Source of the DNA: Roseococcus suduntuyensis
GTDB taxonomy: Bacteria; Pseudomonadota; Alphaproteobacteria; Acetobacterales; Acetobacteraceae
NCBI RefSeq assembly: GCF_014196305.1
Contig: NZ_JACIDJ010000001.1
Location: 585,683 to 649,682, forward strand
Length of the DNA: 64,000 bases
Reading direction: 5' to 3'
A model generated the notes under the pieces. It had not been told where the DNA came from. It made no database searches and saw only the letters and a program-made list of their open reading frames with translations. Positions 35,742-55,182 of the stretch are shown one piece after another. The first letter of the stretch is position 1. Every line of letters begins with the position of its first letter. The translations under genes and the position numbers were made by a program.

Positions 35742-36212
35742 ATGCCTCAGCTCTCGCTGATGACACCGCTGGGTGAACTCACCCTCTCGGAGGAGGACGG
35801 CGCCCTTGTCGCCCTCGACTGGGGGCGGGGTCGGGACCAGTCGGCGACAGCGCTGCTGCGCGAGGCAAGGGACCAGCTGCAAGACTATTTTGACGGGCGC
35901 CGCCTGCACTTCCAGCTGCCGCTGGCGCCGCACGGCACCCCCTACCAGCGCCGGGTCTGGGCCGCGCTCACCCGCATCCCGCCCGGCGAGACCCGCAGCT
36001 ATGCCGACATCGCGCGCGAGGTGGCCTCCGTGGCCCGCGCGGTGGGCCAGGCCAATGGCGCGAACCCCATCCCCATCCTGATCCCCTGCCACCGCGTCGT
36101 GGCGGCGGGCGGGAAGCTGGGGGGCTATTCCGGCCTCGACGGCCCCAACACCAAGCGCTTCCTCCTCGACCATGAGGCGCGCCATCTCAATCCAGGAGCT
36201 TCCGCCCCGTGA
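35742..36212 (+). CDS. ogt: Methylated-DNA--protein-cysteine S-methyltransferase
   Basis: A 156-residue suicidal DNA-repair protein that transfers the methyl group of O6-methylguanine to its own Cys. The active-site motif PCHRVV is in ILIPCHRVVAAGGKLGGYSGL, and RIPPGETRSYADIAREV is the DNA-binding HTH segment. It is Ogt/AGT-type, without an Ada N-terminal domain. The following quinone reductase starts with GTG overlapping the stop by four bases, so they are co-translated. It is divergent from the ferredoxin-domain gene, with a 129-base gap. Confidence 0.93.
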   Translation: MPQLSLMTPLGELTLSEEDGALVALDWGRGRDQSATALLREARDQLQDYFDGRRLHFQLPLAPHGTPYQRRVWAALTRIPPGETRSYADIAREVASVARAVGQANGANPIPILIPCHRVVAAGGKLGGYSGLDGPNTKRFLLDHEARHLNPGASAP

Positions 36213-37183
36213 ACCACAGCATCCGCATCCATGAGCATGGCGGCCCCGAGCAACTGGTGTGGGAGGAGGTGCCGCTCCCCGCGCCCAAGCCCGGCGAGGC
36301 GCTGGTGCGCCACAAGGCCGTGGGCCTCAACTTCATTGACGTCTATTTCCGCACCGGCCTCTACAAGCTGCCCAGCCTGCCCGCCACCATCGGCATGGAG
36401 GGCGCCGGCATCGTCGAGGCGATCGGCGAGGGCGTGACCGAGGTCGCGGTCGGCGATCGCGTGGCCTATGCCTCCGGGCCCGTCGGCGCCTATGCCGAGG
36501 CCCGCACCATCAAGGCCGACCGCCTGGTGAAGATGCCCGACGCCATCGGCTTCGAGGACGCAGCCGCCATGATGCTCCAGGGCATGACGGCGCAATACCT
36601 GCTGCGGACCACCTACCGCGTGAAGGCCGGCGAGACGATCCTGGTGCACGCGGCGGCCGGTGGCGTCGGCCTCATCATGTGCCAATGGGCGAAGCATCTG
36701 GGCGCCACCGTCATCGGCACCGTCAGCACCGAGGCGAAGGCCGAACTCGCCCGCGCGCATGGCGCCGACCACGTCGTTCTGACGGGCGAGGACCTGCCCG
36801 CCGCGGTGAAGAAGATCACCGGCGGGGCCATGCTGCCCGTGGTCTATGACAGCGTGGGCCGCGACACCTTCATGCCCTCGCTCGATTGCCTGGCGCCGCT
36901 GGGCTACATGGTCAGCTACGGCAATGCCTCGGGCCCCGTGCCGCCGATTGATATCGGCGTGCTGGCCGCCAAGGGCTCGCTCTACCTGACGCGCCCCACG
37001 CTGGCCTCCTACACCGCCAAGCGCGAGGATCTCGTGGCCGTGGCCGAGGACCTGTTTGACGTCGTTACCAAGGGCGCGGTGAAGATGAACGTGAACCAGC
37101 GCTACCCGCTGAAGGAGGCCGCCCAGGCGCATCGCGACCTGGAGGCGCGCAAGACCACGGGCAGCACCGTCCTGCTGCCCTGA
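36209..37183 (+). CDS. Quinone oxidoreductase, zinc-independent MDR family
   Basis: A 324-residue NADPH:quinone reductase-like enzyme of the medium-chain dehydrogenase family. The N-terminal GroES-like domain (HKAVGLNFIDVYFRTGLY, which is characteristic of quinone reductases) is followed by a Rossmann domain with VHAAAGGVGLIMCQWAKHLGA at about residue 148. No structural or catalytic zinc-binding cysteines appear, as expected for this subgroup. GTG start overlapping ogt. The substrate is a quinone or an alpha,beta-unsaturated carbonyl. It is followed by a single copy of the hairpin repeat. Confidence 0.92.
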   Translation: MNHSIRIHEHGGPEQLVWEEVPLPAPKPGEALVRHKAVGLNFIDVYFRTGLYKLPSLPATIGMEGAGIVEAIGEGVTEVAVGDRVAYASGPVGAYAEARTIKADRLVKMPDAIGFEDAAAMMLQGMTAQYLLRTTYRVKAGETILVHAAAGGVGLIMCQWAKHLGATVIGTVSTEAKAELARAHGADHVVLTGEDLPAAVKKITGGAMLPVVYDSVGRDTFMPSLDCLAPLGYMVSYGNASGPVPPIDIGVLAAKGSLYLTRPTLASYTAKREDLVAVAEDLFDVVTKGAVKMNVNQRYPLKEAAQAHRDLEARKTTGSTVLLP

Positions 37184-37185
37184 GC

Positions 37186-37230
37186 GTCTGATCGCCTTCG
37201 GCGCTCCGCGAAGGCGTGAATCAGCCGCCC
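37186..37230. repeat. Single copy of the 52-bp hairpin repeat family
   Basis: GTCTGATCGCCTTCGG ... CGAAGGCGTGAATCAGCCGC begins three bases after the quinone reductase stop. The outer arms CTGAT (37188-37192) and ATCAG (37220-37224) pair, and the inner CGCCTTCG pairs with CGAAGGCG; a TGA lies unpaired on the 3' side. It occupies the gap between two convergent genes. This matches the tandem copies at 43299-43454 in layout. Confidence 0.8.
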
Positions 37231-37244
37231 GACAAAGCCGAAGG

Positions 37245-37616
37245 CTATGCCTCGGCGCGCTTCGCCGCGCGCCGCAGCACCGCGCAGAGCCGCGAAAAGC
37301 TTAGCCAGAAGGCGCCATGGCCCGGCGCATCGTCGGCGCGGCCATTCACCAGCGGCTCGCCCCGCCGCAGCATGCCCAGCCGCGCCTCGACGCGGCCGCG
37401 CATGTTCTCCAGGAAGGCATCGGTCGCGGAGAGATACTGCTCCAGCACCTCCGCGGTGATCTCGATCTCGGCATTGGAGCGGCCGGCCGTGGTGAAGCGC
37501 TTCAGCGCGCGCGTCTCGGCCAGCAGGGTCAGATGCAGCTTGTGCAGCTCGGTCAGGTGGCGGGTCAGGCGCATCCGGGCCTCCCGCACCTCCTCCGCCG
37601 TGGCGTCGCCGGTCAT
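37245..37616 (-). CDS. Small helical protein, unknown function
   Basis: A 123-residue, mostly charged and helical protein (ATAEEVREARMRLTRHLTELHKLHL ... ALKRFTTAGRSNAEIEITAEVLEQYL), with no signal peptide or membrane helix. I do not recognise the family. The start at 37616 has GGAGG five bases upstream; an ATG at 37628 would add four residues. It is convergent with the quinone reductase gene across the hairpin repeat, and divergent from the kinase gene 75 bases away. Composition and the strong ribosome site support coding. Confidence 0.6.
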   Translation of the reverse strand: MTGDATAEEVREARMRLTRHLTELHKLHLTLLAETRALKRFTTAGRSNAEIEITAEVLEQYLSATDAFLENMRGRVEARLGMLRRGEPLVNGRADDAPGHGAFWLSFSRLCAVLRRAAKRAEA

Positions 37617-37690
37617 GCTGTCCTCCATTCCCCCGCGAGGGTGCGGCAGCAGGCTTAACGGATGCTTATGATCGCCCCAGGAACACCATC

Positions 37691-38200
37691 ATGCTCATCG
37701 TCTTCAGCGGCCTGCCGGGAACGGGCAAGACCACGATCTCGCGGGGGATCGCGCGTCGTCGCCATGCGATGCACCTCCGCATCGACGTGATCGAGCAGGC
37801 CATCCGCAACGCCGGGGTGTTGGCTGGCGAGGTGGGCACCGCAGGCTATGGCGTGGCCAATGCCCTGGCCGAGGCCAACCTCGCCGCCGGCCTCGCCGTG
37901 GTGGCGGATTGCGTGAACCCCGTGCGGGAAAGCCGCGCCGGCTGGCAGGCGGTGGCCGCGCGAAGGAGCGTTCCGCTGGTGCAGGTGCTGGTGGTCTGTT
38001 CCGACGTGGCGGAACACCGCCGCCGGGTCGAGGAGCGGGTCTCGGACCTGCCGGGCCTTGTCCCGCCGGACTGGCACTCTGTGACCCACCGCCGGTTCGA
38101 GGCCTGGGAGGGGCCGCATCTCCGCCTCGACACGGCCATGCTCAGCCCCGCCGAGGCCATCGAGCGTGTCGAGGCCCATATCGCGGCCTTGCGGGCGTGA
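37691..38200 (+). CDS. P-loop small-molecule kinase (AAA_33 type)
   Basis: A 169-residue nucleotide-binding protein. Walker A is FSGLPGTGKTTISRGIA at residues 5-21, followed by DVIEQAI, ADCVNPVRESRAGW and VVCSDVAEHRRRVEERV, the layout of small kinases related to gluconate, adenylylsulfate and tRNA-ligase-type kinases. The substrate cannot be inferred. There is no antitoxin neighbour, so a zeta-toxin reading is unlikely. ATG at 37691. Confidence 0.78.
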   Translation: MLIVFSGLPGTGKTTISRGIARRRHAMHLRIDVIEQAIRNAGVLAGEVGTAGYGVANALAEANLAAGLAVVADCVNPVRESRAGWQAVAARRSVPLVQVLVVCSDVAEHRRRVEERVSDLPGLVPPDWHSVTHRRFEAWEGPHLRLDTAMLSPAEAIERVEAHIAALRA

Positions 38201-38222
38201 CGATCGCGGGGCTGCTGCGGCG

Positions 38223-38642
38223 CTACCGGATCACCTCGAAATACCCCGTCTCCTCGTCCATCCGCCCATGCTCTTCCGTGCGGAAATCGTAGCGTGACAC
38301 GATGCCCAGCACCCGGCCTTCTTCCACCACCGGCAGGTGACGGAAGCCGCCATCATTCATCAGGCGCAGCGCCTCTATGGCGCGATCCTGTGCGCGGAGC
38401 GTGGTGGGGGATTTGGTCATCACCTGGCCGAGCGCGGTGCGGGCGGGGTCCATCTCCCGCGCCAGGCAGAGCACGGCGTCACGCCCGGTGAAGACGCCGG
38501 CGAGCTTGCCGTGCTCCACCACCAGCACCGCGCCCACGCGGCGGCGGTGCATGGCGATGCAGGCTTCCTGCACGGTGGCGCCCGGTGGCATCGCCAGCGG
38601 GTCCTGGTGGCGGACCATCTCCGCCATGGTGCGCGTCTTCAT
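38223..38642 (-). CDS. CBS-domain protein
   Basis: A 139-residue protein made of two CBS domains (about 8-60 and 68-125), which together form a Bateman module binding adenosine nucleotides. The pattern PPGATVQEACIAMHRRRVGAVLVVEHGKLAGVFTGRDAV then DRAIEALRLMNDGGFRHLPVVEEGRVLGIVSRYD is clear. It has no fused catalytic domain, so it may regulate another protein or serve as an energy sensor. It is 22 bases from the convergent kinase gene. Confidence 0.88.
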   Translation of the reverse strand: MKTRTMAEMVRHQDPLAMPPGATVQEACIAMHRRRVGAVLVVEHGKLAGVFTGRDAVLCLAREMDPARTALGQVMTKSPTTLRAQDRAIEALRLMNDGGFRHLPVVEEGRVLGIVSRYDFRTEEHGRMDEETGYFEVIR

Positions 38643-38736
38643 GTCTTGGCCCTCCCGAATGCACTGTCCGGAAGGATAACATGACAGGCGCGTGAAGGTT
38701 CTTGCGTTGCCGCAAGACCCCCACCGCTTTTCAATT

Positions 38737-38755
38737 CCAGCGCATGAAGCGCTGG
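38737..38755. terminator. Hairpin downstream of peroxiredoxin gene
   Basis: CCAGCGC-ATGAA-GCGCTGG is a perfect 7-bp stem seven bases beyond the peroxiredoxin stop on the minus strand; a second stem CTTGCG-TTGC-CGCAAG lies at 38701-38716. Neither is followed by a U-run on the minus strand, so termination would be weak or Rho-dependent. The remaining part of this 120-base gap also holds the CBS promoter. Confidence 0.4.
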
Positions 38756-38761
38756 ATGCGC

Positions 38762-39244
38762 TCAGAGCGCGGCGAGAACCGCCTCGGCGCTGCTGACCTC
38801 GAAGGCGCCCGGCGCCTCCACGGCCACATGCGTCACCACGCCGTTCTTCGCCACCAGCACGAAGCGCTGCGCGCGCACGCCCAGGCCGCGGGCCGTCAGG
38901 TCGAACTCGAGGCCCATCGCCTTGGTGAAGGCGGCGCTGCCATCGGCCAGCATGGCCACGTTCTCGCCCACGCCCTGGTCCTTGCCCCAGGCGCCCATGA
39001 CGAAGACGTCGTTCACCGCCATGCAGGCCACGGTGTCCACGCCCTTGCCCTTGATGGCGGCGATGTTGGTCACGAAGCCCGGGAGATGCTTGGCCGAGCA
39101 GGTGGGGGTGAAGGCACCCGGCACGCCGAACAGGACCACGGTCTTGCCGCCGAAGAGCTCCTCGGTGGTCACCTCCTTGGGGCCTTCGGCGCTCGCCATC
39201 ATCAGCTTGGCCGAGGGGATGCTGTCACCGACCTTGATCGTCAT
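38762..39244 (-). CDS. Peroxiredoxin, Prx5 type
   Basis: A 160-residue thiol peroxidase that reduces H2O2 and organic hydroperoxides. The peroxidatic Cys is in GVPGAFTPTCSAKHLPGFV near residue 48, with the Prx5 pattern around it; AVNDVFVMGAWGKDQG and RGLGVRAQRFVLVAKNGVV are typical. No obvious C-terminal resolving Cys was seen, so it may use glutathione or glutaredoxin. The ATG at 39244 has AGGAGGA upstream; the longer frame is not conserved. Confidence 0.92.
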   Translation of the reverse strand: MTIKVGDSIPSAKLMMASAEGPKEVTTEELFGGKTVVLFGVPGAFTPTCSAKHLPGFVTNIAAIKGKGVDTVACMAVNDVFVMGAWGKDQGVGENVAMLADGSAAFTKAMGLEFDLTARGLGVRAQRFVLVAKNGVVTHVAVEAPGAFEVSSAEAVLAAL

Positions 39245-39354
39245 GGGGGATTTCCTCCTGTGCGGAGTGGCCCGTTTAGAACAGAACCGGCGCCAAGAGA
39301 ATGCGGCGCCGCCCGCGGCTTGCAGCCGGCCCGCCCGCGCGCCATCTCTGTGCC

Positions 39355-39951
39355 ATGGCACAGCAGGACTCCCTCGACCCCCTAGACCCCGTTGGCGGCG
39401 ACACCCTCTCTGGGCAGCTGCTCATCGCGATGCCCTCCATGCGCGACAGCCGCTTCGCCCGCAGCGTGATCTGCATCTGCGCCCATTCGCCCGAGGGGGC
39501 CATGGGCCTCGTCCTCAACCGCCCCATCCAGAAGCTCAGCTTCGATGCGCTGCTGCGCCAGGTGGGGGTGGAGGCGGTGCCGCCGCAGCGCGACATCCGC
39601 CTGCTGAATGGCGGGCCGGTGGATGAGGGGCGCGGCTTCGTGCTGCACACCAATGAATGGCGCGAGGAGGGCTCGCTGCCCGTCGAGGGCGGCTTCGCCA
39701 TCACCGCGAACGTGGACATCCTGAAGGCCATCGCCGAGGGCAGCGGCCCGCGCCAATGCGTGCTGGCGCTGGGCTATGCCGGCTGGGGCCCGGGGCAGCT
39801 CGACGCCGAGATCGCGGAAAACGCCTGGCTCATCGCGCCCCCGGACGAGGCGCTGCTGTTCGACACGGAACTCAAGACGAAGTGGGACCGCGCCATGTCG
39901 AAGCTGCGCGTGGACCCCAGCCGCATCGTGGGCGCGGCCGGGCACGCCTGA
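39355..39951 (+). CDS. YqgE/AlgH-family protein
   Basis: A 198-residue member of the UPF0301 (YqgE/AlgH) family, a conserved cytosolic protein of unclear role that in Pseudomonas affects alginate production. Motifs: LSGQLLIAMPSMRDSRFARSVICICAHSPEGAMGLVLNRP, then LLNGGPVDEGRGFVLHTNEW and LALGYAGWGPGQLDAEIAENAWL. The ATG at 39355 begins the conserved part. It is followed by two tandem copies of the 52-bp repeat. Confidence 0.92.
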   Translation: MAQQDSLDPLDPVGGDTLSGQLLIAMPSMRDSRFARSVICICAHSPEGAMGLVLNRPIQKLSFDALLRQVGVEAVPPQRDIRLLNGGPVDEGRGFVLHTNEWREEGSLPVEGGFAITANVDILKAIAEGSGPRQCVLALGYAGWGPGQLDAEIAENAWLIAPPDEALLFDTELKTKWDRAMSKLRVDPSRIVGAAGHA

Positions 39952-39956
39952 CCGCG

Positions 39957-40060
39957 TCCGATCCGTCGCGGCGCAGGCGCGGCGGTAAAGCGGCCGCGCA
40001 AAAGCCCGTCCGATCCGTCGCGGCGCGGCCGCGGCGGTGAATCGGCCGCGCAGAAAGCCC
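39957..40060. repeat. Two tandem 52-bp hairpin repeat copies, GC-rich version
   Basis: Two copies of a 52-base unit with GATC at 39960 and 40012. Copy 2 has GTCCGATCCGTCGCGG ... GGCGGTGAATCGGCCGC; its outer arms CCGAT (40010-40014) and ATCGG (40041-40045) pair exactly. Copy 1 is degenerate on the 3' side (TAAAGCGG instead of TGAATCGG). It fills the gap between two convergent genes. Confidence 0.8.
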
Positions 40061-40064
40061 GCCC

Positions 40065-40931
40065 CTACCAGCGCAGGCTGCGCAGCGCCCCCAACGGGCG
40101 CACGCCCTCTTCCTCCGCCACGCGCGCCAGGACCTCCGACGACGGGTCATCGCCATGGGCATTGGCCGTCAGGCCCGTCATGGCCCAGAGGCTGTCCATC
40201 CCCGCCGCGGCGGCGCCGGCCAGGTCGGTGTGGGGCGTGTCGCCCACCGCCACCACGCGGGCGCGGTCGGTCATCTCCAGCGCCTCCATGACGGGGCCAT
40301 AGACGGCCGGGTCGGGCTTGCCGACCTCGAAGACATCGCCACCCCAGCCCAGGTAGATGTCGGCCAGCGCGCCCGCGCAGATCAGCTTGTCCGTGCCCAC
40401 CATCACCGCGCGGTCGGGGTTCACGCAGACCATGGGCAGCTTGGCCGCGAAGCAGCGTTCCAGGGCGGGGCGATAGGCCTCGACGGAATGCGAGCCGCGG
40501 TCCGGGTCGGGGCCGGTGTTGAGCAGGAAGTCGGCTTCCTCAGGTGTGGCGACCAGCTCGGCCGCGCCGTCCTCGGCCACCGAGAGATCGCGCTCCGGCC
40601 CGATGTGGAAGCCGCGCGGGCCGAACTTGCGGAACCAGCCCTCCGGCCGGTGCTTCAGCCAGAGCCAGGAGACCTCGCCCGAGGAGATGATGCCGTCATA
40701 CAGCCCGCGCTCCAGCCCCATCTTGTCCAGCATGCCCTGGATGAACCAGGCGCGGCGCGGCGCGTTGGTCAGGAAGACGATGCGCTTGCCGCGCTGCCGC
40801 AGCATGGCCAGGCATTCAGACACGCCCGGGTAGAGGGCGCGGCCATCATGCACCACGCCCCAGAGGTCCAGCACGTAGCCGTCATAGCGGTCGGCCAGGG
40901 GTTCCAGGCCTTCGTAGATCTTGATCGTCAC
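40065..40931 (-). CDS. HAD-IIA family hydrolase (TIGR01459-like)
   Basis: A 288-residue phosphatase of the HAD-IIA class with GYVLDLWGVVHDG (motif I, about residue 18), VFLTNAPRRAWFI (motif II), GKPDPAVYGPVMEAL (motif III Lys) and VVAVGDTPHTDLAGAAAAG (motif IV). This subgroup (TIGR01459) is common in alphaproteobacteria and its substrate is unknown. The start is the GTG at 40929-40931, overlapping the TGA of pyrD by four bases, so it is coupled to it. An upstream, much longer frame is a pyrD shadow. Confidence 0.88.
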   Translation of the reverse strand: MTIKIYEGLEPLADRYDGYVLDLWGVVHDGRALYPGVSECLAMLRQRGKRIVFLTNAPRRAWFIQGMLDKMGLERGLYDGIISSGEVSWLWLKHRPEGWFRKFGPRGFHIGPERDLSVAEDGAAELVATPEEADFLLNTGPDPDRGSHSVEAYRPALERCFAAKLPMVCVNPDRAVMVGTDKLICAGALADIYLGWGGDVFEVGKPDPAVYGPVMEALEMTDRARVVAVGDTPHTDLAGAAAAGMDSLWAMTGLTANAHGDDPSSEVLARVAEEEGVRPLGALRSLRW

Positions 40932-41974
40932 GCGTCCACTCCCACGGCATCGGCCACGCGCGCGAAACCGTCGCGCGCCAGCAGCCCCGCCAATTCCCGC
41001 TTGATCCGTCCCACCAGGGCCGGGCCGCCATAGGCGAAGCCCGTGTAGAGCTGCACCAGGGTCGCCCCCGCGCGGATCTTCGCATAGGCCTGTTCGCCGC
41101 TGGCCACGCCGCCGGCGCCCACCAGCACCAGCCTCCCGCCCGCCAGCCGCCGCACGGCCCGCAGCACCTCGGTGGAGCGCTGGAAGAGCGGCGCGCCGGA
41201 GAGCCCTCCCGCCTCGCCCCTGGCCGCGCCGCGCAGCGTCTCCGGCCGGGCGATGGTGGTGTTGGAGATGATGAGGCCCGCCACACCCGCCGCCACGCAG
41301 ACCTCGACCAGCGGCCCCAGGGCATCGTCGGCAAGGTCCGGCGCCAGCTTCACCAGCACGGGCTTGCCCAGCGTCGGCGGCGCAACGGCGGCGAGGATGG
41401 AGGCGAGCCTCGCCTCCCCCTGCAAATCCCGCAGCCCGGGCGTGTTGGGGGATGAGATGTTGATGGTGACGTAGTCCGCCAGCGGCGCCACGGCGCGGCA
41501 GAGCGCGGGGTAGTCGCGCTCCGGGTCCGCGCCCTCCTTGTTCACGCCCACATTGGCGCCCAGCACGCCTGGCAGTGGGCGCGGCAGGGCGCGCAGGCGG
41601 CCCAGGTAGGCGTCGAGGCCCCCGTTGTTGAAGCCCATGCGGTTGATCACCGCCGCGTCCTCCGCCAGGCGGAACAGGCGCGGGCGCGGGTTGCCCGCCT
41701 GGGGGCGGGGGGTGACGGTGCCGGCCTCCACGAAGCCGAAGCCCAGGCGCAGCAGGGGCAGCACCGCCACCGCATCCTTGTCGAAGCCCGCCGCCAGCCC
41801 GATGGGGTTGCGGAAATCGAGGCCCAGGGCCTGGACCGCCAGTGACGGCGCATCGGGCGCGGAATCCGTCCCCGCCAGCCCCGCCGCCAGCCCGCGCAGG
41901 GCGAGGCCATGGGCGGTCTCGGCGTCGAGCAGCCGCAGCGCGGGGGTCAGGGCGGAGGCGAGGGCGGGTGTCAT
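40928..41974 (-). CDS. pyrD: Dihydroorotate dehydrogenase (quinone)
   Basis: A 348-residue FMN enzyme of class 2 that oxidises dihydroorotate to orotate using ubiquinone at the inner membrane, in pyrimidine synthesis. Class-2 marks are the N-terminal helix region preceding FRNPIGLAAGFDKDAVA, AVINRMGFNNGGLDAYL, the catalytic-Ser segment YVTINISSPNTPGLRDLQ, and LVGAGGVASGEQAYAKIRAGA near the end. The following HAD gene overlaps it by four bases. Confidence 0.95.
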   Translation of the reverse strand: MTPALASALTPALRLLDAETAHGLALRGLAAGLAGTDSAPDAPSLAVQALGLDFRNPIGLAAGFDKDAVAVLPLLRLGFGFVEAGTVTPRPQAGNPRPRLFRLAEDAAVINRMGFNNGGLDAYLGRLRALPRPLPGVLGANVGVNKEGADPERDYPALCRAVAPLADYVTINISSPNTPGLRDLQGEARLASILAAVAPPTLGKPVLVKLAPDLADDALGPLVEVCVAAGVAGLIISNTTIARPETLRGAARGEAGGLSGAPLFQRSTEVLRAVRRLAGGRLVLVGAGGVASGEQAYAKIRAGATLVQLYTGFAYGGPALVGRIKRELAGLLARDGFARVADAVGVDA

Positions 41975-42064
41975 GTCGCGGGGCAGATACCGCAGATCCG
42001 TGCGTTGACACAGGGGCAGGCGGGCCGGACATGCTGTCCTTCACACGGCAGGAAGGAACGGGAT

Positions 42065-42955
42065 GTGAAGGGGCCGGTCATGCTCATGACCGGGATCGCG
42101 ATGTTCGGCGTGCTCGACGCCAACAGCAAGATCCTGTCGGCGGAATACAGCGCGGCCCAGGCCATTTTCCTGCGCCATGTCACCCTGCTGGCGCTGCTGC
42201 TGGGGCTGCGCGCCCTGTGGCGCGAGGCGGGCGGGTCGCTCCGCACGCGCCACCCCTTCCTGCACGGGCTACGGGCGGTGGCCATGCTGTTCTCGGGCCT
42301 GCTGTTCTTCCTGGCCTTCCGGCATTTGCCGCTGGCGCTGGGCTACCTGGTCTTCTTCACCGCCCCCTTCCTGACATTGGTCATGGCCGCGCTGTTCCTG
42401 CGCGAGGAAGTGCCGCGCGCGGCCTGGATCTGGTCCGGCGTGGGGTTCGGCGGCGTCATCATCGCGCTGGTGCCGCAGATCGGCGGAGGGGCGAGCCTGC
42501 TCGGGTTGGGCTATGCGCTGTTGGGCACGGTCTGCTACGCCACCAACATCACCATCAACCGGGGCCTGCGCGCCGAGGCGGGGCTGGCGCGGCTGATCTT
42601 CTGGCCCTCGCTGCTGGGGCTGCTGGCCATGGCGCCCTTCGCCTGGGGCGCCTGGGTGCCGCCCGATGCCGAGGGCTGGGCGCGGCTGACGGTGAACGGC
42701 GTGATCGCGGGCGGCGCGACGCTGCTGCTGGCGCTGGCCTTCCGCCATGCCTCGCCGGCGCGGCTGGCGCCCTTCGAATTCATCGCCCTGCCCTGGTCGG
42801 TGGTGCTGGACTATGCGGTGTTCGGCAACACGCCGGGGCTGGCCGTCATCCTGGGCGGGGCCGTGGTGGTGCTGGCCTGCCTGATGAGCGAACGCGCGGT
42901 GATCGCGGCCGCGCGAAGGCCGTCGCGTCAGGGAACATCCTCCGGGAAGGCGTGA
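42065..42955 (+). CDS. EamA/DMT-family transporter
   Basis: A 296-residue integral membrane protein with ten predicted helices in two EamA repeats (about residues 5-135 and 150-285). LDANSKILSAEYSAAQAIFLRHV and LFLREEVPRAAWIWSGVGFGGV are typical of the DMT superfamily; the substrate could be an amino acid or a metabolite. The start is GTG at 42065 with AGGAAGGA seven bases before it; an ATG at 42080 is the fallback. Its 3' end overlaps the DUF952 gene by 28 bases. Confidence 0.87.
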   Translation: MKGPVMLMTGIAMFGVLDANSKILSAEYSAAQAIFLRHVTLLALLLGLRALWREAGGSLRTRHPFLHGLRAVAMLFSGLLFFLAFRHLPLALGYLVFFTAPFLTLVMAALFLREEVPRAAWIWSGVGFGGVIIALVPQIGGGASLLGLGYALLGTVCYATNITINRGLRAEAGLARLIFWPSLLGLLAMAPFAWGAWVPPDAEGWARLTVNGVIAGGATLLLALAFRHASPARLAPFEFIALPWSVVLDYAVFGNTPGLAVILGGAVVVLACLMSERAVIAAARRPSRQGTSSGKA

Positions 42956-43284
42956 CGGCCTTCCGCGTCCAAGGGCACATGCAGCGCCCGCCGCACGGCC
43001 GAGAGCGGCAGGGGCGCGTAGAGATGCGGGAACAGGCCGGGGCGCGAACTGCCGGAGGCCGGCTCCCAGCGCAGCGCATCGCCGAGCGCCGCGCATTCGG
43101 CCTCGATCATCCAGAGATCCGCCTCGCCCGCGCGGTGCTTGGCGGCGGTGGCGCGGAGCTGGGCGGCGGTGGAGAAATGCAGGAAGCCGTCCCGCCGGTC
43201 ATCGGCGCTGCCGCGGTATTCGCCGTGCGTCTCCGCCTCACGCCAATCGGCGCCGCGGATGAGGGTGTAGATGAAGCGTTCCAT
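42928..43284 (-). CDS. DUF952-family protein
   Basis: A 118-residue protein of the DUF952 (ART-like fold) family. MERFIYTLIRGADWREAETHGEYRGSADDRRDGFLHFSTAAQLRATAAKH is the characteristic start (DGFLHFST); then LRWEPASGSSRPGLFPHLYAPLP, and the usual DGRHAFPEDVP-like ending. Function unknown; structurally related to ADP-ribosyltransferases. The three-copy 52-bp repeat lies just upstream of its start, so its promoter is inside or beyond that array. Confidence 0.85.
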   Translation of the reverse strand: MERFIYTLIRGADWREAETHGEYRGSADDRRDGFLHFSTAAQLRATAAKHRAGEADLWMIEAECAALGDALRWEPASGSSRPGLFPHLYAPLPLSAVRRALHVPLDAEGRHAFPEDVP

Positions 43285-43298
43285 TCGCGCCGATTAGC

Positions 43299-43454
43299 GT
43301 CTGATCGCCTTTGGCGGAACGCCAAAGGCGTGAATCAGCCGCTTGGCGAGGTCTGATCGCCTTTGGTGGAACGCCAAAGGCGTGAATCAGCCGCTTGGCG
43401 AGGTCTGATCGCCTTTGGTGGAACGCCAAAGGCGTGAATCAGCCGCTTGGCGAC
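43299..43454. repeat. Three tandem 52-bp hairpin repeat copies
   Basis: Three head-to-tail copies with GATC at 43303, 43355 and 43407, exactly 52 bases apart. Each unit has outer arms CTGAT and ATCAG and an inner near-perfect stem: in copy 1 CGCCTTTGGC, loop GGAAC, GCCAAAGGCG; in copies 2 and 3 one stem base is C to T (a G-U wobble). TGA is left unpaired on the 3' side. It lies between DUF952 (upstream side) and the cell wall hydrolase stop. Confidence 0.9.
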
Positions 43455-43462
43455 ACAACAGC

Positions 43463-43939
43463 TCATTCGGCCTCCGCGTAGAAGCACAGGCCCCCCGTCG
43501 CCAGCCGCGGCACGCGCCCCATGGCCCAGCGCGGCAAGACTTCCTCGGCATGCCACAGCACCGCACCACCCGTCGCGTCCGGCAGGGTGCCCGCCATGGC
43601 GCGGCGCGCGATGCGGCGGCAGACGGCCAGCGCCGGGTCCGCCTCGGGCGGGGCCAGGAAGCGCGCATGGTCCGGGTGGTGTGGGTGGCGCGTGGGGAAC
43701 TGGAAGGGTGCCCGCAGCACCGCCAGCAGGGCGCGGGCGGTGCTGGAGGGGTGTTCCCCGCCGGCATAGCGCAACGCGGCGTCCGGGCAGGCCAGGGCAA
43801 GCCGCGCGCGGGTCAATGCCATGGCGGCCAGCGCCTCGATGGCGCGCGCCGGACGCCCGCCCGCCTCGGCGTAGAGGATGCGCGCCAGCAAGGCTTCCGC
43901 GGCCTCGGTCGCGGTCATGGCGGCGGGGGCGGCGCTCAT
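43463..43939 (-). CDS. Cell wall hydrolase, SleB/Hydrolase_2-like
   Basis: A 158-residue enzyme of the SleB/CwlJ cell-wall-hydrolase family, which cuts peptidoglycan glycan strands. LLARILYAEAGGRPARAIEALAAMALTRARLA holds the catalytic-type Glu in YAEAGG; ARRAMAGTLPDATGGAVLWHAEEVLPRWA is the second family block. There is no signal peptide, as is common in phage-borne lysins. The ATG at 43939 overlaps the preceding small gene's stop by four bases. In the company of a terminase it probably served as a phage endolysin. Confidence 0.82.
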   Translation of the reverse strand: MSAAPAAMTATEAAEALLARILYAEAGGRPARAIEALAAMALTRARLALACPDAALRYAGGEHPSSTARALLAVLRAPFQFPTRHPHHPDHARFLAPPEADPALAVCRRIARRAMAGTLPDATGGAVLWHAEEVLPRWAMGRVPRLATGGLCFYAEAE

Positions 43940-44244
43940 CGGCCGAACCCCCCGTCGCGGCGCAGGTCCTCCAGCTTCTCCTCGATGCGGAGGAGCTGTT
44001 CCGTCAGCCGCTGGTCCACGTCGCGGATGAGGGAGAGGGGCACATAGGTCCGCGCCACCTCCAGCTTGAAATCGGTCAGTTCCTGGCGCGTGCGGGCCAG
44101 GCCGTCCATCTCGCGCCGGTCGCCATGTTCGATCCGCTGGTCGAGGTCGCGCTTGATGCCCAGGACCAGCCACAGCAGCAGGACCGAGACCGGCGCCTCG
44201 GCCAGGCGAAGCAGCATGTGCGGCTCCAGTTCGAGGATGTTCAT
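43936..44244 (-). CDS. Small membrane/coiled-coil phage-type protein
   Basis: A 102-residue protein: a short N-terminus, one hydrophobic helix (APVSVLLLWLVLGIKRDLD; about 17-30), then a long charged amphipathic helix likely to form a coiled coil (GLARTRQELTDFKLEVARTYVPLSLIRDVDQRLTEQLLRIEEKLEDL). This shape is seen in small proteins preceding lysins of tailed phages and in DUF2730/DUF2746-like proteins, but I cannot assign it. ATG at 44244 after AAGGAG. Overlaps the lysin gene by four bases, suggesting a lysis or tail-assembly pair. Confidence 0.62.
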   Translation of the reverse strand: MNILELEPHMLLRLAEAPVSVLLLWLVLGIKRDLDQRIEHGDRREMDGLARTRQELTDFKLEVARTYVPLSLIRDVDQRLTEQLLRIEEKLEDLRRDGGFGR

Positions 44245-44316
44245 GACATCTCCTTGCGGTGGGCGCGGGGCCGCCCCACAACGGGGCGGACCCCGGAGAG
44301 GGGGTATGGAGGGGCG

Positions 44317-44547
44317 ATGTGGAACGAGCCGTATCTCGAGACCTGCTGCCGCTCGGCCCTGCACCGGCTGACGCTGGTGCGGCAGCACGGCCGCCCGCCG
44401 GGCCTGGCGGACGAACCCTGCCTGCGACGGCTTTCCACGATGGGGCTGGCCGGGCTGGGGCCTGACGGACGCTTCGCGATCACGCCCGCGGGGCGGGAGC
44501 GCCACGCGAGTGAAATTCTGAAGACACCCCGCGCCCGATCGGCGTAG
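44317..44547 (+). CDS. Small winged-helix-like protein ending in the first repeat copy
   Basis: A 76-residue protein with Cys-rich start (ETCCRSALHRL) and a winged-helix-like C-terminus (EPCLRRLSTMGLAGLGPDGRFAITPAGRERHASEIL) similar to the effector-side of small MarR/PadR-type regulators. GGAGGGG lies before the ATG. Its last codons and TAG stop come from the first 52-bp repeat copy, so the array may have replaced the original end. It is divergent from the small membrane protein gene. No family recognised. Confidence 0.55.
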   Translation: MWNEPYLETCCRSALHRLTLVRQHGRPPGLADEPCLRRLSTMGLAGLGPDGRFAITPAGRERHASEILKTPRARSA

Positions 44548-44784
44548 GCGCGGCCGCAGCCGTGAATCGGCCGCGTGGCAAAGCGCCCGATCGGCGTAGG
44601 CGCAGCCGCAGCCGTGAATCGGCCGCGCGGCAAAGCGTCCGATCGGCGTAGGCGCGGCCGCAGCCGTGAATCGGCCGCGCGGCAAAGCGTCCGATCGGCG
44701 TAGGCGCAGCCGCAGCCGTGAATCGGCCGCGCGGCAAAGCGTCCGATCGGCGTAGGCGCAGCCGCAGCCGTGAATCGGCCGCGC
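44535..44784. repeat. Five tandem 52-bp hairpin repeat copies
   Basis: Five head-to-tail copies with GATC at 44537, 44589, 44641, 44693 and 44745, exactly 52 bases apart, nearly identical (they differ mainly at a CGCGG/CGCAG pair and at a few spacer bases). Outer arms are CCGAT (44535-44539) and ATCGG (44566-44570), with GTGAATCGGCCGC as in the other arrays. Inner pairing is weaker than in the 43.3 kb array. It lies between the convergent 76-residue gene and terminase gene. Confidence 0.92.
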
Positions 44785-44791
44785 AACACAC

Positions 44792-46204
44792 CTAACCGCG
44801 CCAGCTCGGCCCGCGGGGTTGCGGCGGCAGGGCCGGCATCCGCACCGGTTCGGCCAGGATGGCGCCGGCCACGGCGTCCAGCGCGTCGTCGCGCGCGCCC
44901 TTCGCGTCCGGGCGCCATTCCGCCATCTCGCGCGCGAAGGCCGAGGTCATCACGCCCTCATGCGCGTAGAGGCGGCGGGCGGCCAGCAGCGGGTCGAAGG
45001 CGGCCAGGATGCGCTCCGCCTTGGGGCGGTGGCTGGCGTGTTCCAGCACCTGGCAGGCGGCCCCGGCGCGCGCCATCTCACGCTTGAGCAAGGCGGGCAG
45101 GAAGCGGCCCAGCCCGTTGGTCTCGACCCGCACCACCGGCAATTGCAGGTCCCGCGCCAGCGCCGCCACCTGGCGGCACTGCTGCGTGGCGGGGTCGTCC
45201 GGAGCGTCGGCACGCTGGGTGATCCACTCCACGCGATGGATGAAGTGGTGGTTCTCCCCATCCATGTAGGTGGCGGCGAGGACGGAGCCGTCGCCCCCCT
45301 TCTCGCGCCCGAAGGCCGGGTCCCAGAAGCCGCCGCCCGAGACCATGCGCCGCCCGAGCAGCCAGAGCTGCGGGCGGCCCTGCGCCTCGACATATTCCGT
45401 CTGCTCCGCGTAGCGCAGCAGCAGCGCGGGATCGAGCCGCGCGGCCGCGGCGGGCACGGGTTGCAGCAGCATCTGCCGGGCGAAGTGCATGGGACCCACG
45501 CGTCGGCGGATGGCGGCGATGGCGGGCTCGGAAAAGCGCTCGGGCCAGGCGCTGCGGCCCTCGGCGTCCAGGATGGGCACTTCCAGCCGGGCATAGCCGC
45601 GCAGGAAGTCGTCGCCGGGGCGGTAGAGGCTCTCCTCCGTGTGCGGCGTGCCGACGTAGAGGATGGCGCCGCCCGGCGTCAGGATGAACTCGGTCTCCGC
45701 CAGGCGTTCGCGCAGCTCGTGGCGCTTGCCGGGCGTGTCGCAATTGCCCGGCACCTCCACGTCGTCGCAGATGATGAGGTCCGCGCGCGCGCCGGTGATG
45801 TTGCCCTGCAGCCCCTGCGCGAACATCGAGGGGTCGCGCAGGGCGGAGCGCCGCGATACGGTGAAGCGGTCGGTGGCCCAGGCCTCGCCGTCCTCGGGCA
45901 GAAGCGGGCGGCAGAGCGGGTGGCGCTCCAGCACGCGGCGCACATGCGCCACCATGCGCGCGGCGAGCGACTGTTCGGCCGCCAGCACCATGATCCGCAG
46001 CTCCGGGTTGCGATACAGCGACCAGGCGCAGAGCAGCCCCACCAGCGTGGATTTCCCGCAGCCGCGGAAGGCCATCAGCAGCATGCGGTTCGACGGCCGG
46101 CCCTCCAGCCAGAGCAGGATGCGGCGGTGGAGGGCGGGCGTCCTCAACTCCTGGGCGCGGTTCCACATCCAGGTGAATTCCAGCAGGTCAGCCGGCTTCT
46201 CCAT
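44792..46204 (-). CDS. Phage terminase large subunit
   Basis: A 470-residue DNA-packaging motor with an intact ATPase and nuclease. Walker A is MAFRGCGKSTLVGLL near residue 48, Walker B is ADLIICDDVE near 140, and the coupling motif is AILYVGTPHTEES near 178. The RNase-H-fold nuclease is GGGFWDPAFGREKGGDGSVLAATY near 288 and the late RDDALDAVAGA. ATG at 46204, which overlaps the frameshifted upstream gene by 17 bases; the frame is also open upstream. Portal, capsid and tail genes are absent, so this is a remnant or a domesticated gene. Confidence 0.9.
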   Translation of the reverse strand: MEKPADLLEFTWMWNRAQELRTPALHRRILLWLEGRPSNRMLLMAFRGCGKSTLVGLLCAWSLYRNPELRIMVLAAEQSLAARMVAHVRRVLERHPLCRPLLPEDGEAWATDRFTVSRRSALRDPSMFAQGLQGNITGARADLIICDDVEVPGNCDTPGKRHELRERLAETEFILTPGGAILYVGTPHTEESLYRPGDDFLRGYARLEVPILDAEGRSAWPERFSEPAIAAIRRRVGPMHFARQMLLQPVPAAAARLDPALLLRYAEQTEYVEAQGRPQLWLLGRRMVSGGGFWDPAFGREKGGDGSVLAATYMDGENHHFIHRVEWITQRADAPDDPATQQCRQVAALARDLQLPVVRVETNGLGRFLPALLKREMARAGAACQVLEHASHRPKAERILAAFDPLLAARRLYAHEGVMTSAFAREMAEWRPDAKGARDDALDAVAGAILAEPVRMPALPPQPRGPSWRG

Positions 46205-55033: not shown

Positions 55034-55182
55034 CCGCCGGTTTATGGCCGCCCTGCCCCGCCCGTGCTAGAGCGTGATGCGTTGAGGCGGAATCGCCGAA
55101 AACGCTGAATCATCCTTTCAGAAAAAGGCTGGGCCAGGCGGCGTGAGCGCAAGCGAACGCAGCATGGTCTGGACGCCGCGCC
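55034..55182. other. Divergent promoter gap between rsmB-like and dedA genes
   Basis: This 149-base gap separates divergent genes. It holds a hairpin of the repeat-family type (next entry) and little else: no second open frame of coding character, no RNA gene. Promoters of both genes should lie here, but no -35/-10 pair stood out. Confidence 0.35.
55075..55112. repeat. Degenerate single hairpin resembling the 52-bp repeat layout
   Basis: TGAT-GCGTT ... AACGC-TGA-ATCA: outer arms TGAT (55075-55078) and ATCA (55109-55112) pair, then GCGTT pairs with AACGC, with a TGA bulge on the 3' side; an inner GGCG-GAAT-CGCC hairpin fills the loop. The order outer arm, stem, TGA bulge, ATCA is as in the tandem family at 37-45 kb, although the sequence differs. 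Confidence 0.5.

Follow-up and report, generated by a model that had tools for sequence, protein, structure and literature searches.

Four sites within one stretch of the Roseococcus suduntuyensis genome (64,000 nucleotides, referred to as a whole as the window) carry copies of the same hairpin unit, which raises the question of what kind of element this is, what moves it and how it persists beside genes. The 11 copies of the preliminary description (one near 37186, two near 39957, three near 43299 and five near 44535) were re-located at these positions, and Tandem Repeats Finder returned the claimed period of 52 for all three arrays. A covariance model (R1), built from 50 copies of which five were taken from the window, re-found 11/11 window copies at 39.6–70.8 bits. 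These are listed below together with a sister-family copy.

37182..37231, + strand: single copy in a convergent gap; R1 58.5 bits; RNA MFE -24.3 kcal/mol
39952..40000, + strand: two-copy array, copy 1, degenerate (GTAAAGCGGCCGC); R1 39.6 bits
40004..40052, + strand: two-copy array, copy 2; R1 50.8 bits
43295..43345, + strand: three-copy array, copy 1; R1 70.8 bits
43348..43397, + strand: three-copy array, copy 2; R1 51.8 bits
43400..43449, + strand: three-copy array, copy 3; R1 51.8 bits
44529..44577, + strand: five-copy array, copy 1, containing the TAG stop of ORF 44317–44547; R1 58.9 bits
44581..44629, + strand: five-copy array, copy 2; R1 60.4 bits
44633..44681, + strand: five-copy array, copy 3; R1 60.4 bits
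44685..44733, + strand: five-copy array, copy 4; R1 61.4 bits
44737..44785, + strand: five-copy array, copy 5; R1 61.6 bits
55068..55120, + strand: sister-family copy (GATGCGT…ACGCTGAATC), found by pattern search; R1 33.3 bits

The CTGATC core of the 37182 copy begins 4 nt past the stop codon (TGA) of a gene for a zinc-type alcohol dehydrogenase, and the two-copy array (39952–40052) occupies a convergent gap behind an AlgH-like gene. The copy at 43295 starts on a TAG that does not serve as a stop, and both flanking genes are antisense to it. ORF 44317–44547 (+), of 76 aa, ends on translation at a TAG within copy 1 of the five-copy array. Three of the four loci had been placed between convergent genes; this stands if that ORF is a gene, the 43299 array being the one located between two minus-strand genes. 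As the gene caller missed the ORF, the five-copy array is tallied as antisense in the statistics below. A 659-aa ORF was also found to represent two overlapping genes, for a HAD hydrolase and a dihydroorotate dehydrogenase.

The repeat unit forms a hairpin of 50 nt, [A]GCG-Y-CYGAT-C…G-TGA-ATCRG-C-CGC[T]. The CYGAT/ATCRG arms drawn originally were recovered within a stem that is longer than drawn, comprising an outer GCG/CGC (often AGCG/CGCT), a Y·C mismatch, the CYGAT/ATCRG arms, the TGA bulge and a variable inner stem of about 8–11 pairs. The string GTGAATC(A/G)GCCGC, described as constant, was present in 10/11 window copies and not in the first copy at 39957. The TGA bulge on the 3' side, also described as constant, was nearly fixed in a scan not conditioned on TGA, accounting for 20/24 three-base bulges in 224 kb and 49/65 in 1.04 Mb, with none in three shuffles of each. 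A K-turn was considered and dropped, there being no G·A pairs after the bulge as in the K-turn consensus. The median fold of copies was -28 kcal/mol; the copy at 44737 was matched in folding by 26 of its 200 shuffles, that at 40004 by 8, that at 37182 by 3 and that at 43295 by 0. RNAalifold alone predicted only the lower 12 of the 20 named pairs. A short motif with two mismatches allowed performed no better than shuffles in the window (27 found vs 22.6 expected), indicating that specificity resides in the whole hairpin. No Rfam match above gathering score was obtained for window positions 36000–46000.

Across 50 aligned copies, pairing was kept in most stem pairs despite letter changes. Paired cells made up 88.5% vs 76.0 in shuffles, double-change cells numbered 134 vs 46, and the covariation score was 0.320 vs 0.109 when shuffled, with slid controls at no more than 0.098. 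On the named strand, G·U outnumbered A·C by 106 to 24 among 218 distinct cores, and by 48 to 7 when counting one copy per array, which indicates that a single strand folds, as RNA or as ssDNA. The same excess was seen in antisense and divergent arrays (7:0), so an effect via the mRNA of the upstream gene is not favoured; running the test separately on sense and antisense arrays did not distinguish RNA from ssDNA.

The preliminary description took compensatory change in the arms to indicate selection on structure. Double changes with pairing kept, the near-fixed bulge and the G·U excess all agree with this, although selection need not be the sole source of compensatory change, because template switching can rewrite both hairpin arms at once (PMC8794818, in excerpt). 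We regard it as rather unlikely that the changes arise wholly from such replication template switching in quasi-palindromes, with structure unselected. The mechanism itself is known from that excerpt, and at locus 921843, which contributes 5 of the 9 double changes at orthologous sites, this genome (G000) and G004 share the foot but differ in the whole inner stem, as would fit one switch. However, double changes also occur at 215283, 539068 and 749224, neither the bulge nor the Y·C mismatch has been corrected, and G·U outnumbers A·C. The near-fixed bulge and the G·U excess speak for a role of structure as well.

GATC and GAATC occur in the conserved foot and bulge of every unit, which might point to sites bound by gyrase, a methyltransferase or a nucleoid protein, although the copies were chosen by patterns containing both strings. 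We consider this reading very improbable. The GAT/TGA/ATC core by itself accounts for both strings, and a one-strand G·U preference would be unexpected of a duplex site. Furthermore, the GAT / TGA-bulge / ATC core recurs in the sister-family copy at 55068, where a swap has put G-C at the pair above. The sister family reads GATG where GATC is expected, so GATC is not required.

Over the whole genome, a strict pattern gave 213 matches (113 forward, 100 reverse) and its reversed control 0, so that the further copies sought in the genome and its relatives were found, about 200 here and family-wide by model search, the carriers numbering 73 genomes. Neighbours within 200 bp formed 85 direct pairs and 1 inverted pair, which does not bear out the classical BIME organisation suggested earlier; the largest arrays had five units. 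Inner identity was 0.94 between adjacent copies vs 0.68 between arrays. By our own gene calls, 97/106 arrays were intergenic and 9/106 lay inside called genes. Convergent gaps held 55 of the 97 intergenic arrays vs 17% of intergenic length, a strong enrichment that bears out the convergent placement noted in the window.

Most sense arrays (67/77) started -4 to 15 nt from a stop codon. Where a nearby stop was readable, it was TAG in 45/58 cases vs 128/809 genes, this TAG frequently overlapping the stem foot. TAG was present at the 5' foot in 54/106 first copies and 9/89 later copies, and where it served as the stop its G was paired in 42/43 folds. Co-directional gaps had sense and antisense arrays at 22:15 (p 0.32), and the sense bias thus rests on stop-codon placement, not on orientation alone. 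A lagging-strand bias was unsupported in 1.04 Mb of G004, where convergent-gap arrays were split 9:8 and the GC3 skew was too flat to be of use.

Such placement, together with strong hairpins and one-strand G·U tolerance, would be expected of functional terminators or 3'-end stabilisers that are selected at gene ends and not mobile. In line with this, fully paired stems prevail over purine-loop types in sense arrays (48 vs 14) and not in antisense or divergent arrays (6 vs 13; p 5e-4), in a comparison leaving out 15/77 sense and 1/20 other arrays that were mixed or too short. Nonetheless, we judge this explanation unlikely. No window copy appeared in the output of a simple terminator scan, which counts against the bidirectional terminators proposed at first, and inspection by eye likewise found no window hairpin followed by a T-run. 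In addition, 20/106 arrays were called antisense or divergent, and arrays reach five units.

Placement also differs between sister species. Among 40 comparable sites, 20 had a same-strand copy, 2 a copy on the opposite strand and 18 no strict copy, states that come from two genomes and at most sites do not polarise gain vs loss; half of the sites thus have no same-strand strict copy, contrary to what fixed gene-end signals would predict. In the window, G003 and G004 are without the 37182 copy and have a different short hairpin instead (by eye), and G003, G004 and G013 are without the copy at 40004. The empty 43295 site reads TTAG^CTCA in G003 and TAGCTCA in G004, G010 and G018, and the same gap in G009 has one copy with other arms. 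In the gap of the five-copy array, G003 has three related copies and G004 one inverted copy of another type. Precise element ends were clear at few sites only. A MITE would have terminal inverted repeats and a fixed target duplication; the duplications seen here by eye were 21-bp at 895161 and shorter at 394445 and 940219, with none evident at 628983.

REPs are usually explained through their RAYT enzyme, and none was seen in the window. The Y1 (RAYT) profile PF01797 likewise had no match in this genome, nor in 19/20 congeners, G035 and G041, with controls positive; thus 20/21 genomes of the genus have no Y1 enzyme by this profile. Other carriers, each with at least 17 covariance-model matches among the matches listed, gave the same result in 7 of 8 cases (G173, G227, G187, G130, G155, G125 and G044; controls positive). 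G053 had a weak PF01797 match and 20 R1 matches among those listed. The search for a mover covered the Y1 and Y2 families, and the Y2 transposase profile PF04986 had no match in 7 genomes, its control also being silent.

The family shares with GTAG REPs and BIMEs (E. coli group 2), as described in excerpts of PMC8266576 and PMC3733652, a high copy number of intergenic imperfect palindromes close to gene 3' ends, and GTAG REP ends may likewise supply a TAG stop. It could therefore be asked whether these are ordinary GTAG-type REPs whose RAYT is no longer present, works in trans or has diverged beyond detection. The CTGAT/ATCAG lower stem with an irregularity just above it, as in REPs of the E. 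coli malE-malF gap (by eye), the TAG at the 5' foot in about half of first copies and the intergenic position near stops (cf. PMC3733652, in excerpt) all agree with this. The irregularity, however, involves different bases and the other arm, TGA being extra on the 3' arm here in place of the AA-GC mismatch of the described elements. GTAG is not conserved, nor unpaired at one end: G at -7 occurs in only 29/106 first copies, and TAG is scarce in later copies. Direct arrays replace the inverted dimers of the excerpted accounts, and the Y1 profile was silent in the genomes given above. An ordinary GTAG-type identity thus appears improbable.

CGTC REPs are described in the excerpted part of PMC3733652 as mostly alphaproteobacterial and without a dedicated transposase. 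GCGTC often opens the element here, and the Y1 profile was silent in the genomes given above. According to the same excerpt, their stems measure 8–9 bp and open with A-T pairs, most have a CCA tail, the dimers are head-to-head, and the Acetobacteraceae are reported to be without them. Here, in contrast, the GCG and C are paired in a stem of about double that length, and the consensus and structure show neither an unpaired CGTC tag, an 8–9 bp A-T-first stem nor a CCA tail. The use of one strand and an irregular hairpin is shared with IS200/IS605 single-strand transposition (PMC8266576, in excerpt), with the difference that no Y1 enzyme was found here. According to an excerpt of PMC12306157, REPs lying no more than 15 nt from a stop reduce translation (citing earlier work), and 446/4072 predicted E. 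coli REPs are so placed; the corresponding figure here is the 67/77 sense arrays above, often with the stem overlapping the stop.

No description of the Roseococcus hairpin family was found in the literature at the level of titles and abstract openings, in a search covering long result lists in part. In a sequence-string literature search with a rhizobial palindrome, the matches listed looked unrelated by title. Lichenicola cladoniae, a member of the Acetobacteraceae, offers a possible further case. Its 1,369 loosely defined REPs (PMC12306157, in excerpt) could include this family.

Taken as a whole, the family is probably best explained as a non-autonomous, REP-like hairpin element of the Acetobacteraceae, so that the REP-like assignment made initially holds overall. 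The best reading is that it is confined almost wholly to this family of bacteria and is tolerated at positions where it becomes a 3'-UTR hairpin. We infer a sequence of events in which one strand would be recognised as a folded single strand through its bulge and its GAT/ATC foot, either by some enzyme or by replication-linked template switching, and new copies would enter the genome, often directly after a T. Copies within genes would be lost. Where the AG of a copy completes a TAG stop, the protein would be left almost intact and the copy could persist, after which tandem slippage may multiply it. If transcribed, a hairpin at the stop codon would be a 3'-UTR structure affecting termination, ribosome release or mRNA decay. 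More tentatively, and on balance doubtfully, the family may represent a transposase-independent or differently powered REP-like class, characterized by TGA-bulge recognition on one strand, insertion after T, AG completing the host stop and head-to-tail amplification; it would then act as a mobile 3'-UTR, rewriting stop codons and leaving proteins unharmed.

A family of about 200 copies, with placement differing between sister species and 20/21 genomes of the genus without Y1, raises the question of what moves REPs without a RAYT. This combination of a copy-rich, shifting family with no detected Y1 in the genus makes RAYT-independent REP movement testable in a culturable group. The many matched gene pairs with and without a stop-codon hairpin likewise provide a natural experiment on the role of 3'-UTR hairpins in termination and translation.

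The eleven copies of the 52-base hairpin unit that a preliminary description had placed in the window were all found at those positions, and the period of 52 held in all three arrays. Two copies do lie near 39957, as described, but one of the pair is degenerate (GTAAAGCGG). In the whole genome of R. suduntuyensis (4.14 Mb, 17 contigs, the window lying within contig 1), a strict pattern of CYGATC, 15–40 bases and TGAATCRG gave 113 forward and 100 reverse matches, and the same pattern read backwards as a control gave none. At least 150 candidates from this genome match R1, a covariance model built from 50 copies (150 scored, all at E ≤ 6.7e-11).

The structure of the unit was determined from an alignment of 50 copies, chosen by patterns demanding GATC and TGAATC. 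The lower part consists of [A]GCG, a Y·C mismatch, CYGAT/ATCRG and, in the 3′ arm, a bulge of TGA. Above the bulge the stem continues with one C-G pair, then three pairs that vary, a zone of three bases and some four further pairs closed by a small loop. In some copies the three-base zone pairs throughout (TTC/GAA, TTT/AAA, CCC/GGG), and in others it sets purine against purine (GGA/GGA and kin). The outer arms vary with pairing retained, as in GTGAG/CTCAC at locus L003 and CGCC/GGCG at locus L019. Folding energies of first copies (n=106) had a median of −28.4 kcal/mol (range −37.0 to −18.5), and when six copies were each set against 200 shuffles, equally stable shuffles numbered at most 3 for four copies and 8 and 26 for the others.

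Under the structure named here, 88.5% of 978 cells paired (76.0 in shuffles, which ignore the kinship of copies), 13 of 20 pairs showed double changes (shuffles 9.5) and double-change cells numbered 134 (shuffles 46.0). The covariation score was 0.320, compared with 0.109 for shuffles and 0.098 for the best slid control. RNAalifold unaided recovered the lower 12 pairs only, with double changes in six of them. The GAT/ATC columns and the C above the foot were invariant in the 50 copies, as was partly demanded by the selection pattern. The bulge itself was recovered by scans that did not require TGA: among bulges of three bases, TGA accounted for 20 of 24 within 224 kb of this genome and for 49 of 65 within 1.04 Mb of the sister species (G004), and no TGA bulge occurred in three codon-shuffled versions of each stretch. 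Hairpins with another or no bulge numbered 20 and 78 in the two stretches, where shuffles gave 5–14 and 40–65 hairpins in all; judged by eye, most of these match coding sequence, and a few, with bulges of CGA, AGA, TAA or TTA, resemble family members. The hairpin family is real, large and structurally constrained.

The copies also show a strand preference. A duplex or cruciform site predicts equal numbers of G·U and A·C, whereas 218 distinct cores, selected by counting Watson–Crick pairs only, contained 106 G·U (either order) and 24 A·C. With one copy per array the counts were 48 and 7, under a rule that slightly favours G·U by admitting it at inner pairs one to four. Kinship among the copies makes the p values (1.7e-13 and 1.3e-8, respectively) too small, though the direction of the difference is plain. 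Arrays called antisense or divergent (n=20) have the excess as well (7 versus 0), and it is therefore not proof that the mRNA of the upstream gene is the selected molecule; single-stranded DNA is equally possible.

The sister species differ in their copies. Among 56 contig-1 arrays, 40 had a syntenic stretch in the part of G004 examined (flanks ~89–99% identical), of which 20 were filled on the same strand, two on the opposite strand and 18 were without a strict copy, these last including a near copy at 956402 and partial copies at 514834 and 895161 (site numbers here are those of contig 1). Across the 20 filled site pairs, seven of which were of unequal length and compared in part only, 242 stem pairs were the same, nine had changed doubly with pairing kept, six singly to G·U, 13 singly to or from a mismatch and two doubly with a mismatch. 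Five of the nine double changes come from 921843, where the entire inner stem was exchanged: the copy at 921843–921902 and its G004 ortholog at ~3065276 share the same foot, and their inner stems are wholly different yet well paired, a candidate replacement in a single event. This leaves four doubles at three loci, and for that reason template switching is still a serious rival explanation.

Array structure was surveyed in stretches of this genome chosen for holding copies. These contained 200 copies (195 with GATC and five with GATG) in 115 same-strand arrays, comprising 63 single, 29 double, 14 triple, eight quadruple and one quintuple. Neighbours less than 200 bp apart were direct in 85 cases and inverted in one, and spacing was 51–59 in 74 of the 85 intervals. 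Inner sequence identity was 94% between neighbours (74 of 85 pairs, equal length only) and 68% between arrays, so arrays probably enlarge through local duplication, with stems that differ from site to site. G041, a genome of another genus, carries arrays of 12 and 11 near-identical direct copies (C2 80065–80696 and C40 340571–341127), longer than those read in R. suduntuyensis.

With a simple in-house gene caller, 109 arrays were placed (six were dropped for lack of flank). The 106 GATC arrays among them were distributed as 55 convergent, 37 co-directional, five divergent and nine within called genes; convergent gaps make up 17% of intergenic length (enrichment binomial p 2e-18). Co-directional arrays were split into 22 sense and 15 antisense (p 0.32), the window's five-copy array being among the 15 only because the caller missed the ORF at 44317–44547. 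Sense arrays (n=77) started exactly 3 nt past the stop in 43 cases and between −4 and 15 nt in 67. Of 66 stops near arrays, 58 were readable from the flank kept: 45 TAG, 12 TGA (six inside the element's own CTGATC) and one TAA, compared with a background of TAG in 128 of 809 genes. In folds of copies with TAG as stop (n=43), the stem included the G in 42 cases and the A in 19. TAG also precedes nine of the 20 arrays called antisense or divergent. Fully paired stems outnumbered purine-loop stems 48 to 14 in sense arrays, against 6 to 13 in antisense or divergent ones (p 5e-4; mixed or short arrays, 15 of 77 and one of 20, omitted), a split that may reflect either function or subfamily.

At 943597 and 1105798 the filled gene stops at TAG and the empty ortholog at TGA, and at 496471 the latter stops at TAA (by eye); 807960 aligns likewise by eye, with no gene end called there. 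The simplest reading of these alignments, if the empty state came first, is that the element would enter after a host T, its AG completing a new stop codon. TAG is already present in the empty site at 628983, the window's three-copy array, and at 1034531. In R. thiosulfatophilus the empty sequence at 628983 is TTAG^CTCA; TAGCTCA recurs in G004, G010 and G018, and G009 carries one copy in this gap, its arms being CATGAT/ATCATG. The copy at 895161 is flanked by a 21-bp duplication, and duplications of lesser length were seen at 394445 and 940219. Outer arms and spacers that look host-derived, with CATCA shortly past the hairpin, were seen at L019 (C1 394445), C1 895161, C2 137730 and C6 28094, a subset that may be a clue to copy origin. 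At L210 (C1 990060–990141) two copies have been inserted at an ATGA stop/start overlap; compared with G004, they apparently displace the point where the next gene begins (by eye).

In the window, a terminase large subunit gene (44795–46204, − strand; phrog_38, E 1e-82) lies beside a gene for a phrog_29007 protein (43936–44244, − strand). The stretch just before the terminase gene (~43460–44520) has nucleotide matches in most congeners, so this region is possibly a gene transfer agent or old prophage remnant.

Each of the 20 other congeners searched contained the strict pattern, with copy numbers from 3 to 131 (the low counts overlap the background of up to 15 in other families). R1 at E ≤ 1e-6 matched 73 of 200 family genomes (45 of 102 genera) and, in a class-wide draw, two of 289, namely the window's own and G362 (two weak matches); both surveys used stricter filters. 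We infer close relatives of the source genome to be Roseococcus, Rubritepida and Sabulicella. The sister family, GATGCGT…ACGCTGAATC, has the same bulge with the pair above it swapped, and its inner stem is more uniform. It matched 11 of 120 genomes (own included), with 26 copies in the window's genome, 74 in G055 and two in G035, at least one of these apparently by chance. The window holds one copy:

Window 55068–55120, + strand: sister-family copy TAGAGCG…GATGCGTTGAGG…AACGCTGAATC (pattern search)

The preliminary description saw no RAYT transposase in the window, and a search of the whole genome with PF01797, the Y1 (RAYT) profile, likewise found none. Among 120 genomes (own included) 17 had a match, within the genus only G016, which has six pattern copies; among eight further genomes with at least 17 R1 matches there was a weak match in G053 only. 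E. coli and Caulobacter positive controls matched every time.

According to PMC3733652, REPs as a rule are found behind genes, and those of the GTAG type may provide TAG stops; REPs up to 15 nt from a stop reduce translation, per work cited in PMC12306157. The CTGAT/ATCAG foot of E. coli REPs, compared in the malE-malF gap, is the same as that of the hairpin family. Directly above it E. coli REPs have an AA-GC mismatch, needed by their enzyme together with GTAG (PMC8266576). The family departs from GTAG REPs in three defining features. From CGTC REPs, which have no transposase and reportedly do not occur in Acetobacteraceae (PMC3733652), it departs in tag, stem and tail. The family is REP-like in its working and is filed here as a new REP-like variant.
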